Below are positions 30,433 to 33,236 of a stretch of 57,668 nucleotides of DNA, piece after piece. The notes beneath the pieces were generated by a model. The model made no database searches and was not told the DNA's origin. It saw only the letters and a program-made list of their open reading frames with translations. The stretch's first letter is position 1, and every line of letters begins with the position of its first letter. The DNA is from an uncultured Bacteroidota bacterium (lineage in GTDB: Bacteria; Bacteroidota; Bacteroidia; Bacteroidales; VadinHA17), in the NCBI GenBank assembly GCA_937864815.1, contig CALMJY010000045.1, positions 1 through 57,668 of the forward strand. The letters are read 5' to 3'. The position numbers and the translations under genes were made by a program.

Positions 30433-31377
30433 ATGAGATTACCAGCTCTTTCCGATATTCAGGCAGCCCATTCAAGGATAAGACCTTTTATACATTATAC
30501 CCCTGTTCTGACATCACAGCAATTAACTAAATTGTTTGATTGTGAGCTTTATTTCAAATGTGAAAATCTTCAGAAAGTCGGAGCATTCAAATTCAGGGGA
30601 GCAACAAATGCAGTTATGCTGTTAAATGATGACGAAAGGAAAAGGGGAGTTGTAACTCATTCATCAGGTAATCATGCTGCTGCTCTGGCCCTTGCTGCTT
30701 CCATGAACGGGGTAAAGGCAAACATTGTGATGCCTGATACAGCCCCTGCAGTTAAGAAAAATGCTGTGGCAGGCTATGGTGCTGAAATAACTTTCTGCAA
30801 ACCGACTCTTCAGGCGCGGGAAGAGACAACCAGGGCCATTATGGAAAGAACCGGTGCAACACTTGTTCATCCTTATGATAATTTCAATGTTATCTGCGGA
30901 CAGGGAACTGCCGCACTAGAACTTCTTGCTGATAAGCCGGATCTTGACTTTGTAATTGCACCTGTGGGAGGGGGCGGACTCATGAGCGGAACCTCAACAT
31001 GTGTCAAAGGATTAAACAGCAAAATCAGGGTAATTGGTGCTGAGCCAATGAATGCAAATGATGCGTGGAAATCGTTCAATTCAGGACAGCTGGTCCCTTC
31101 TGTTAATCCGTTAACAGTAGCAGATGGGCTGCTTACTTCGCTTAGTGATCTTACTTTCACAATAATAAGGAAGAATGTTGATCAGATACTTACGGCAACA
31201 GAAGAGTCGATTATAGAATGCATGCTTCTGGTATGGGAAAGGATGAAAATTATAATAGAACCTTCATCCGCAACTGTGCTTGCTGTAATAAAGGAGAACC
31301 CGGAAATATTCAGGGGTAAAAAGGCAGGTCTGATAATTTCAGGAGGAAATGTTGATTTCAGGAAATTGCCGTTTTAA
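30433..31377 (+). CDS. Serine/threonine dehydratase or serine racemase-like PLP enzyme
   Basis: This 314-aa fold-type-II PLP enzyme carries the PLP lysine Lys53 in KVGAFKFRGA, SSGNHAAALA (residues 77-86) which binds the carboxylate, and the phosphate-binding glycine loop PVGGGGLMSG (177-186). The length without an ACT regulatory domain fits catabolic threonine dehydratase or serine racemase. The exact substrate cannot be told by eye. Its last 57 bp, including the stop codon, are repeated perfectly at 32105-32161, showing that DNA was inserted at its 3' end without disrupting the coding sequence. Confidence 0.9.
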   Translation: MRLPALSDIQAAHSRIRPFIHYTPVLTSQQLTKLFDCELYFKCENLQKVGAFKFRGATNAVMLLNDDERKRGVVTHSSGNHAAALALAASMNGVKANIVMPDTAPAVKKNAVAGYGAEITFCKPTLQAREETTRAIMERTGATLVHPYDNFNVICGQGTAALELLADKPDLDFVIAPVGGGGLMSGTSTCVKGLNSKIRVIGAEPMNANDAWKSFNSGQLVPSVNPLTVADGLLTSLSDLTFTIIRKNVDQILTATEESIIECMLLVWERMKIIIEPSSATVLAVIKENPEIFRGKKAGLIISGGNVDFRKLPF

Positions 31378-31378
31378 T
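31322..31378 (+). repeat. 57-bp direct repeat, left copy
   Basis: The 3' end of the dehydratase-like gene (from AGGCAGGTCTG to the TAAT at the stop) is identical to 32105-32161. The two copies bracket a 726-bp segment carrying the GIY-YIG gene. Confidence 0.9.
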
Positions 31379-31460
31379 AACGTTTAATCAGCTTGTTTTA
31401 ATATTGCGGTGCGCTGCACCTTTGATACCTGTTAGAATTGCTTAGCTACTTATAATTAGC

Positions 31461-31565
31461 CGGGGAGATCCCGCGAAGCGGGAGAAATGAGGAATCTCCA
31501 ACTTATACCACCCCACTGCCATACAAATATTAGATTGTCATTCCAAAGCAAAGCGAGGAATCTCG
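31461..31565. repeat. Palindromic intergenic element inside the insertion unit
   Basis: It contains the hairpin TCCCGC-GAA-GCGGGA and then GAGGAATCTCC, followed by GTCATTCCAAAGCAAAGCGAGGAATCTCG. The words resemble those of the element at 16091-16292 (GTCATCCCGAAGCGAAGC, AGATCCC). It is probably a degenerate member of the same family. Confidence 0.5.
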
Positions 31566-31712
31566 TGAATTAATTAAGGAAATTTTACAGATAAACATTG
31601 CATCAGCAGGCACTTTAATAACATTAGCGAAGACCAGATTGTTATTATTAAAGGATTAAACTTTTTTAGTAATTTGGGCTACATAATTGTTTTGACAATA
31701 ATCTGCAGATCA

Positions 31713-32042
31713 ATGAAAATTCATTTATATTATGTTTATATCTTAACAAATATGCATCATACTGTTCTTTATACCGGAGTTACTAATGACTTAGAGAGAA
31801 GGTGTTATGAACATAAACAGAAGAAGATAAAGGGATTTACACAAAAATATAATGTTGATAAGCTGATTTATTTTGAAAAGTTTGATTCAATAGAAGAAGC
31901 CATTACCAGGGAAAAACAGATTAAAGGGTTTTCCAAAGAAAAGAAACTGGCACTAATTAATAAGGTTAATAATGATTGGAAGGAATTATCACATACAGGA
32001 TTATTTATGAATCCTTTGGTAATTGAATCAAATCAGCAATGA
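31713..32042 (+). CDS. GIY-YIG nuclease family protein
   Basis: From the ATG at 31713 this is a 109-aa single-domain GIY-YIG protein (YhbQ/UPF0213-like). YYVYILTN supplies the first motif and LYTGVTNDLERRCYEHK the second, with the arginine and histidine in the usual places, and the Glu-containing helix follows (EEAITREKQIKGF). A TTG start 39 bp upstream is less likely. It stands alone within the duplicated-repeat bracket, so the nuclease may be what mobilised this unit, in the manner of a homing endonuclease. Short GIY-YIG proteins of this type are otherwise common in Bacteroidota and poorly understood. Confidence 0.9.
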   Translation: MKIHLYYVYILTNMHHTVLYTGVTNDLERRCYEHKQKKIKGFTQKYNVDKLIYFEKFDSIEEAITREKQIKGFSKEKKLALINKVNNDWKELSHTGLFMNPLVIESNQQ

Positions 32043-32104
32043 AAAGTTCTCAGATTGGATTTGTCTTTCTATTTCAGGTTTGGCTGTATACTGCACAAAA
32101 CAAG

Positions 32105-32161
32105 AGGCAGGTCTGATAATTTCAGGAGGAAATGTTGATTTCAGGAAATTGCCGTTTTAAT
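32105..32161 (+). repeat. 57-bp direct repeat, right copy
   Basis: Perfect copy of 31322-31378. Its last bases also provide the stop codon (minus-strand TAA at 32159-32157) of the EEP gene. The open reading frame is not used on the plus strand. Confidence 0.9.
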
Positions 32162-33236
32162 CAGGTTTCCTCAGCCAGGCAACAATCGGATAATGATCTG
32201 AGTATTTAACTTTCAGGATATCAAAATGATTATTTATGAGCGGATCACCATACAAGATGTAATCAATTCTGTTTGGAGGGTAATTCCCCTTATATGTAAA
32301 ACCAGCCCCGTATCCTGAATTGACGAATGAATCATTCAACCCTCTTCTTATCTTCCTGTATGTGTAGGATACAGGTGTGTCATTGAAATCACCGGCTACG
32401 ATAACAGGGTACTTTGAACTGTTGATATGGTCTTTAACTACCTGTGCCTGAAGAGATCTTCTTACAAAACCATTTTTGAGACGTACCGAAAGAGATTTAA
32501 CTTCTTCTATTGTCTCCTTTTCTTCAGAAGTCATCTCTTCAAGCAGTGATTTTTCCATCTTTTTCAGCCTGAATGACTGAAGATGGTTGTTATAAATTCT
32601 GAATGTATCATTCTGTATAACAACATCGGTAAAGATTGTGAGGCTTGATGATCCGGGATGTATTATTTCACCCTTTCTGACTATAGGGAACCTGCTGTAA
32701 GTTGCAATTCCATAATATCTGTTTTTACCTCTGCCAATAAGTTTAATATGAGAATGGTACTTTCCTCCCAGCATTGATTTAGCCAGCTTTTCATTAGCTG
32801 AAGGATCACCCTGAACAAAATATTCCTGCATGCATATTATATCGCAATCCTGAGCCCTGATAAAATCAAAAACCTTCTTTTCCGAACCGGGTCCATTCCT
32901 GGTTTCATAATAATTGAAGAGCCTTACATTATAGCTGATCATTTTAAAGGCACCTTCCTTTGTACCGGAAGGTTGTGAAAGCTTGATATAATTTGAAAAA
33001 TGATTCAATCCCAGGAGGATGACCGCAAGCGAGATAAAAGCCTCAAAACGAAGCAGCATGGCCCAGACAATTACCAGAATTATATTAACCAGCAGAAGAT
33101 ACGGATATGCCAGACCGAAATATGCAGGAAGGATAAAATCACCCGGACTGATATGCACGGCAAGGTATGATATCAGAAGGGTTGCAGCAACCAGGGCATT
33201 AAAGCTCAGCAGTACCCAGTACAGGATTCTTTTCAA
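32157..33236 (-). CDS. Membrane-anchored endonuclease/exonuclease/phosphatase family protein
   Basis: This 359-aa protein has two to three N-terminal membrane helices (residues 1-85), then an EEP domain. The domain carries ISYNVRLFNYYE (Asn for metal/phosphate), CMQEYF with the metal-binding Glu, AGDFNDTP, and the terminal SDHYPIVAWL with the catalytic Asp-His. The substrate could be nucleic acid or a phospho-lipid/sugar and cannot be chosen by sequence. It is the last gene of the mutL-rhomboid block, an order often seen in Bacteroidota. Confidence 0.9.
   Translation of the reverse strand: MKRILYWVLLSFNALVAATLLISYLAVHISPGDFILPAYFGLAYPYLLLVNIILVIVWAMLLRFEAFISLAVILLGLNHFSNYIKLSQPSGTKEGAFKMISYNVRLFNYYETRNGPGSEKKVFDFIRAQDCDIICMQEYFVQGDPSANEKLAKSMLGGKYHSHIKLIGRGKNRYYGIATYSRFPIVRKGEIIHPGSSSLTIFTDVVIQNDTFRIYNNHLQSFRLKKMEKSLLEEMTSEEKETIEEVKSLSVRLKNGFVRRSLQAQVVKDHINSSKYPVIVAGDFNDTPVSYTYRKIRRGLNDSFVNSGYGAGFTYKGNYPPNRIDYILYGDPLINNHFDILKVKYSDHYPIVAWLRKPD

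Follow-up and report, generated by a model that had tools for sequence, protein, structure and literature searches.

In 2013, short palindromes called CGTC REPs were described that apparently have no dedicated transposase (Di Nocera et al. 2013, PMC3733652). The part of that report used here describes a CGTC, TGTC or CCTC tag, a stem that starts with AT and a CCA tail, with the repeats arranged as head-to-head pairs at 3' ends in alpha-Proteobacteria and Neisseria. In the RAYT/REPtron and REPIN system, as the sections of Bertels and Rainey (2011, PMC3116915) drawn on here describe it, a chromosomal gene is flanked by short palindromes, inverted palindrome pairs are scattered as miniature repeats, and the RAYT genes are single-copy. 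The free-standing GIY-YIG homing endonucleases of T4-like phages are encoded by intergenic genes beside their target genes, according to the portion of PMC2988022 used, and the main text of that paper contains neither 'duplicat' nor 'direct repeat'. For the phage enzyme SegB, the available part of PMC13096335 describes tRNA linkage and segmental amplification, which is a precedent for the tRNA-linked relatives described below. Stand-alone GIY-YIG proteins of the UPF0213 type are also known as structures (PDB 1zg2 and 1ywl); these entries are named hypothetical proteins and give no function and no link to REPs. Among the matches listed by our literature search, none ties a GIY-YIG gene to REPs, and the main texts of PMC3686654 and PMC8049555 contain neither 'GIY-YIG' nor 'CGTC'.

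Here, a locus was analysed in which a small GIY-YIG nuclease gene lies between two convergent genes of an uncultured Bacteroidota bacterium. The window is the whole stretch of DNA analysed, 57,668 nucleotides of contig CALMJY010000045.1. Like the RAYT/REPIN system, the locus has a chromosomal gene accompanied by short palindromes, which also occur as inverted pairs elsewhere in the genome. Unlike that system, the gene encodes a GIY-YIG nuclease and not a Y1 tyrosine transposase, and it has one to eight matches per genome. RAYT/REPtron membership was rejected because the only Pfam match in the insert is GIY-YIG, with no Y1 tyrosine transposase. The nuclease resembles the phage enzymes in its intergenic position and in the conserved Arg, Glu and Asn of its GIY-YIG domain, but it is chromosomal and is essentially the catalytic domain alone. 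It was set aside as a Seg-type homing endonuclease because it has no separate DNA-binding region and few phage records contain it (2 of 50,697). It is like the UPF0213 proteins in size and domain. An insertion sequence was also rejected, since no transposase was seen, the duplication is 57 bp and not short and fixed, and repeat lengths vary among loci. A search of 31379-32104 against Rfam gave zero matches at E up to 1, and an Rfam-listed RNA element or intron was rejected on that result.

The comparison with CGTC REPs is closer in annotated replicons than in the window itself. In the replicons the palindromes beside the nuclease gene share the tag, the AT-starting stem, a CCA-like tail and the inverted pairing, and the taxa overlap with those named in the part of PMC3733652 used (Sinorhizobium meliloti, Azospirillum lipoferum, Neisseria). 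In the window and at many other loci the stem is looser and the tail is CTC, so that the published definition fits these repeats only in part. The window's own repeats lack the described 8-9 bp stem, 4-5 nt loop and CCA tail: the short one has the TGTC tag and AT start, but its core is ATTCC/GGAAT and its tail CTC; the other is truncated. Inverted head-to-head pairs do occur in the window's genome, which has ten.

A GIY-YIG unit inserted between convergent genes

The features of the locus are collected in the table. A repeat search confirmed what an earlier note on this DNA had claimed, that the end of the dehydratase-like gene is repeated exactly over 57 bp at a spacing of 783 bp. This is the longest exact direct repeat at distances up to 1500 bp in the window, where the next longest is 22 bp, and the 57-mer occurs twice in the window, at the two insert edges and nowhere else. 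The note was also right that the right copy supplies the stop codon of the EEP-family gene, which is a TTA on the minus strand inside that copy, and that both neighbours keep their ends. It had described the insert as one palindrome plus a 109-aa GIY-YIG nuclease, without transposase or integrase. The 726-bp length and the gene stand, and the single palindrome becomes two REP remnants and a small palindrome near 31408-31420. By open reading frames and Pfam, the sole recognised gene of the insert is GIY-YIG, and no transposase or integrase was seen in it.

Table. Coordinates of the gene pair, the repeat copies and the insert, as positions in the window.
Feature	Coordinates	Strand	Basis
PALP-family (dehydratase-like) gene; last 53 bp and stop duplicated	30433..31377	+	PF00291, E 2.4e-73; ORF
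Left copy of the exact 57-bp repeat, the functional PALP gene end	31322..31378	+	Repeat search
Insert, 726 bp	31379..32104	+	No GIY-YIG insert at the PALP-EEP junction in 29/29 same-genus loci
Truncated REP palindrome	31462..31500	+	DNA fold -8.6 kcal/mol, z -2.59
Decayed short REP, TGTC-ATTCC..GGAAT-CTC	31536..31564	+	Fold alone not significant, z -0.70
Stand-alone GIY-YIG nuclease gene, 109 aa, ATG at 31713	31713..32042	+	PF01541; alignment
Right end of the unit	32043..32104	+	L077 and L078 homology stops at the first base of the right repeat copy
Right copy of the 57-bp repeat, which also gives the EEP stop codon	32105..32161	+	Repeat search
Endonuclease/exonuclease/phosphatase (EEP)-family gene, convergent neighbour	32157..33236	-	PF03372, E 1.3e-22

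The note had proposed a comparison with relatives, and 60 genomes were screened for the PALP gene. Of the same-genus genomes, leaving out the window's own, 31 had a PALP match at E < 1e-100, and 29 loci were retrieved. The convergent PALP-EEP pair is kept in all 29, and tblastn found no GIY-YIG gene at the junction in any of them. The note had named unrelated sequence in place of the repeat as a result that would speak against it; the relatives have a homologous gene end there. It had named the same 57-mer around other units as another, and the units that were read do not have it. The two genes overlap by exactly 4 bp in 21/29 loci, in agreement with the TTAA overlap that the note obtained by collapsing the repeat, and the gap is at most 10 bp (abutting or overlapping) in 26/29; in the other three it is 41, 73 and 502 bp. 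Since 29/29 same-genus loci are without the GIY-YIG gene, the ancestral state was most simply a single gene end without the insert. The 726-bp segment is an insertion, and the PALP and EEP genes are unbroken. Apart from the risk of misassembly, the insertion and its 57-bp duplication are near certain.

The longest of the three gaps, in L042 (about 2445-2948, PALP strand), holds other, partly repetitive sequence whose start is a simple repeat of the GGGCACA type. In this genome the C-terminus of PALP is altered, and tblastn found no GIY-YIG gene in the filler.

The limits of the unit can be read from related units. A unit from another species of the same genus (L077) matches the insert over 582 bp at 79%, from 31525 to 32105, and the homology of a further unit of the genus (L078) ends at the same base, the start of the right 57-bp copy. 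Because both stop there, the unit appears to own its right end. The left end is less certain: the 146 bp to the left of 31525 are not common to L077 and include the truncated REP, and 31525 itself is close to the decayed short REP. A full REP of the long type, like the truncated one, is present on contig C110 of the same genome.

The nuclease matches PF01541 at E 6.7e-17 in a 122-aa frame, with the domain at residues 19-90 of that frame. The protein is 106-109 aa long, and its relatives also stop soon past the GIY-YIG domain. In an alignment of 19 sequences the putative catalytic R27 and E64 are invariant and N83 is conserved in at least 90%; the catalytic role of Arg, Glu and Asn is taken from the I-TevI description in the part of PMC2988022 used. 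The closest solved structure by sequence is the UPF0213 protein 1zg2 (E 4.4e-6). NCBIfam has no family for the window protein or for the tRNA-linked GIY-YIG protein, and PHROGs gave two weak families of unknown function and nothing else. Relatives were found at 10 IMG/VR loci and are rare in the plasmid collection, with 34 of 72,556 records, some of them chromosome-sized. No tyrosine transposase is listed within the 2-3 kb shown around 13 annotated relatives, and one of the 13 has an IS4-family transposase upstream; another six records carry no annotation in that region. On a Planktothrix plasmid (L362) a relative has an MmeI-type restriction gene on one side and the DISARM gene drmA on the other.

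Flanking repeats and duplicated gene ends at related loci

Flanking direct repeats recur around the nuclease subfamily. An exact flanking repeat of at least 20 bp was found at 17 of the 56 usable GIY-YIG loci of the genus and neighbouring set, compared with 46 of 2445 random slots. A flanking direct repeat of at least 20 bp was present in 28/76 loci when L245 (a run of N) was dropped, and in the order-wide set blastn found flanking repeats at 39/60. Their lengths differ among loci, and many contain REP sequence.

Duplication of a protein gene's end is rarer. It was confirmed at 3 of 201 loci, the window, L094 and L352, and in all three it affects the upstream gene on the same strand. The 201 loci are 141 plus the 60 order-wide ones and include 24 more distant GIY-YIG loci as well as some loci with short flanks. 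The count may be low, as L103, L115, L209, L227, L320, L321, L346, L349 and L354, among others, were set aside without being read one by one; such overlaps of a repeat with a reading frame were set aside as REP-containing, as lying at the start of the frame, or as a short frame within the repeat. In L094 the copies are 105 bp long and 88.6% identical, with a 57-bp identical core and divergent edges, and the right copy keeps the reading frame up to the same stop, its changes being synonymous or conservative. In L352 the copies are 140 bp long and 95% identical; 99 bp are coding, and the two mismatches in the coding part are both synonymous. Judged from these few substitutions, the changes in L094 and L352 hint that the end was carried in and not simply copied.

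Two other candidates, L337 and L345, were rejected as host-gene-end duplications, as their repeated DNA is mainly REP-containing and follows or supplies the gene end. In L337 (1827-1957, nuclease on the plus strand) a REP-like hairpin gives the upstream gene its last codons and stop, and the segment recurs after the nuclease gene at 98.5% identity.

More distant GIY-YIG genes, about 30-45% identical, follow tRNA genes directly and lie on their strand. A tRNA gene is upstream at 28 of 52 matched loci, and in 20 of those 28 a copy of the tRNA 3' end follows the nuclease gene, a count that includes one place counted twice (the repeated places in this survey are L127/L166 and L120/L137). The copies are exact and 14-70 bp long, with three of the 20 just 14-17 bp; they include those at L125, L127, L130, L134, L138, L142, L145, L148, L155, L157, L159 and L164, and the tRNA of these units is mostly tRNA-Val TAC. 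In several genomes the tRNA-linked units form tandem arrays with a period of roughly 330-410 bp. Since tRNA 3' ends are duplicated too, end duplication by GIY-YIG units is a broader habit. The earlier note had proposed a search for other GIY-YIG genes of the subfamily flanked by duplicated gene ends. End duplication recurs at the unrelated protein genes of L094 and L352 and at tRNA genes, and at protein genes it is the exception (3/201). By eye, a GC-rich hairpin that is absent from the tRNA precedes the tRNA-end copy at L125, L127 and L130.

Tagged palindromes beside the nuclease genes

The association of the nuclease subfamily with tagged REPs is strongly supported. In the flanks, the palindromes take the form TGTC-ATTCC..GGAAT-CTC or GTCATTGCGAG..GAAGCAATCT. 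Within 400 bp, 159/205 loci from five sets have a tagged palindrome of the strict or the relaxed form, compared with 23/302 control windows, and 46/205 have none. The strict CGTC form is present at 43/205 loci, in rhizobia, Neisseria and part of the Bacteroidota; elsewhere, the window included, the looser TGTC-tagged form is seen. The two forms may belong to one superfamily, to judge from their common tag, AT start and inverted pairing. The earlier note had proposed a minimal unit that carries or copies the end of its target; the insertion and the kept gene ends hold, and the usual company of the nuclease, the REP palindromes, had been missed.

The five sets differ in how much they say. The strict hairpin follows the published CGTC description, scanned with one mismatch and with loops of 3-12 nt (published, 4-5). 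The relaxed motif was picked after the genus loci and flanking repeats had been viewed, so neither the genus set nor the many-phyla set tests it independently; the order set was scanned once the motif was fixed. In the genus set the strict form was at 1/16 loci and either form at 12/16 (controls 0/37 and 0/37). In the order set these counts were 6/60 and 35/60 (controls 0/69 and 2/69), with scrambled tags at 1, 1 and 2 of 60 against the strict 6; the relaxed motif was within 500 bp at 32/60, on both sides at 20. In the many-phyla set, the best 80 of 574 confirmed relatives, the counts were 5/80 and 71/80 (controls 5/162 and 19/162). There the relaxed motif was within 500 bp at 69/80 loci and on both sides at 51/80. 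Per 10 kb, it occurred 48-53 times up to 250 bp from the gene and 1.0-2.2 times at distances above 1 kb; near the nuclease gene its reversed form was absent. The Bacteroidota sample gave 18/30 and 27/30, with scrambled tags at 1, 1 and 1 of 30; this set is biased, having been chosen as the best 30 matches to the S. meliloti protein, and its loci are too short for control windows.

The strict test in annotated replicons was prompted by the description in the part of PMC3733652 used. The plasmid-collection records that hold a relative were sampled as 16 fetched first and 3 later, several of which are closely related. A CGTC tag with an AT-starting 8-bp palindrome was found at 13/19 loci, either form at 14/19, with controls at 2/34 for each and scrambled tags at none nearby. 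Among the first 16 the strict hairpin was within 400 bp in 11, three sets of scrambled tags gave 0 near, and 40 hairpins were near the gene against 12 far from it, ten of the far ones in one record. These 11 records come from Sinorhizobium, Shinella, Neorhizobium, Rhizobium, Azospirillum lipoferum, Aeromonas, Photobacterium and one Neisseria gonorrhoeae record, and in the first 16 the Planktothrix, Spirosoma and three sphingomonad records have no CGTC hairpin near the gene. Across the five sets, the strict hairpin is enriched in two, the annotated replicons and the Bacteroidota sample, and not clearly elsewhere. Repeated places among the loci are L178/L079 and L179/L080. In Azospirillum lipoferum 4B (L364, 2857-3475) the nuclease gene and its CGTC REPs are inside the suf cluster, between sufB and sufC.

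The association is also seen at the level of genomes. In 295 genomes of the order, with the nuclease called at E at most 1e-15, at least three REPs were found in 32/55 genomes with the nuclease and 28/240 without it. The corresponding counts for 395 genomes of the phylum, where the S. meliloti protein served as query and the CGTC pattern was stricter, were 38/148 and 6/247. Both p values are 2e-12, ignoring relatedness. The window's genome has 36 patterned REPs, with zero matches to the reversed control, and the ten inverted pairs among them span 101-255 bp. These pairs were used to look for a window-like duplication at REP pairs without the nuclease, and this was rejected: none has an exact flanking repeat of at least 13 bp within 300 bp.

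How the unit may have arrived

The explanation we favour, with a little better than even confidence, is that a chromosomal micro-element of a stand-alone GIY-YIG gene and TGTC-tagged REP palindromes recently inserted at the overlapping convergent 3' ends, driven by its nuclease and producing the 57-bp target duplication. The nuclease would nick or cut at REP hairpins and at new sites, and repair or recombination would insert the unit at a break whose nicks are far apart. Filling in the DNA between them on both sides would then give a long and variable target duplication, and the insertions that survive would be those that leave the gene end intact. We infer the nuclease as driver, its action on the REPs and the duplication by fill-in; for the nuclease as driver and for the exact copying step our confidence is about even. 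Several results count against this explanation. Protein-gene ends are duplicated at just 3 of 201 loci, the strict hairpin is not clearly enriched in three of the five sets, and the ten REP pairs of the window's genome have no such flanking repeats. The window's own REPs are truncated or decayed, no tagged palindrome is near 46 of the 205 loci, 28/240 and 6/247 genomes are REP-rich with the nuclease undetected, and 23/55 and 110/148 have fewer than three patterned REPs despite it. By eye, at least four of the ten REP pairs in the window's genome are inside longer inverted repeats of the kind moved by ordinary transposases, and the mosaic copies of L094 are not what simple fill-in predicts.

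It is somewhat unlikely, but consistent with the L094 mosaic, that the unit came from another strain or locus together with a gene end and integrated by homology, in a homing-like way. The functional left copy would then be partly donor DNA and the right copy partly displaced original. The identical middle and divergent edges of L094, its in-frame right copy with synonymous or conservative changes, the synonymous coding mismatches of L352, and the tRNA 3' ends carried by tRNA-linked units, several in tandem arrays, would all fit such an origin. Against it, the 57 bp of the window are identical and bear no donor signature, the donor allele was not found, and the substitutions in L094 and L352 are few, so that the coding signal is no more than suggestive. 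Coincidence is an unlikely reading: GIY-YIG genes and REPs would gather in 3' intergenic spaces, each moved by separate machinery such as RAYT or DDE transposases. REPs are known at 3' ends (in the part of PMC3733652 used), the left gene is co-directional at 78/100 and 46/57 loci (raw counts without a baseline), and some REP pairs are in MITE-like inverted repeats. But the motif density falls off steeply away from the gene, REPs and nuclease are associated at the genome level in two samples, and CGTC repeats are described, in the same part of PMC3733652, as not associated with transposase genes. The motif is also missing within 500 bp in the set of 24 more distant GIY-YIG loci, ten of which lie next to a tRNA gene.

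Passive repair, in which a break at the PALP end was patched by a fragment that happened to hold the nuclease gene, with the nuclease uninvolved, is improbable. A paralogue 88% identical over 268 bp elsewhere in the genome could have supplied such a fragment, but the unit end is conserved and family loci have flanking repeats far above controls. The chance that two molecules were wrongly joined at the 57-bp repeat is very small. The window is a contig of a fragmented 348-contig assembly, which leaves room for such a join, yet neither gene end is cut short, units in other genomes match the end of the insert, and similar structures appear in other assemblies.

Beyond the preferred account of a nuclease-driven insertion at this locus, the GIY-YIG nuclease is a candidate partner of CGTC-type REPs. 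A wider reading is tentative and stays short of even confidence: that the subfamily moves and maintains CGTC-type REPs and their looser TGTC kin as a transposase-free class of mobile element. The single-domain nuclease would cut REP hairpins, REP pairs would be the miniature form and nuclease units the full form, and insertion would be at gene 3' ends with long end duplications. Our confidence in this reading was lowered slightly because the strict hairpin is enriched in two of the five sets. If it is true, two unrelated enzymes have driven REP elements, and a GIY-YIG protein of a single domain takes the role of a transposase. Later work reportedly places RAYT genes in Neisseria, and therefore a RAYT may be present there. 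A small nuclease amid CGTC REPs in rhizobia, Azospirillum, Neisseria and part of the Bacteroidota would turn the gap of a missing enzyme into a direct experiment. The window locus would be useful as a model target site: its insertion is clean and recent, and the long duplication is exact and falls where two gene ends overlap.

Four REP-pair loci of the window's genome (L275, L285, L292 and L297) show, by eye, pairs within longer imperfect inverted repeats of MITE-like appearance, with ends GAGTATCGGCAATCAT / ATTCCCGACACTC.
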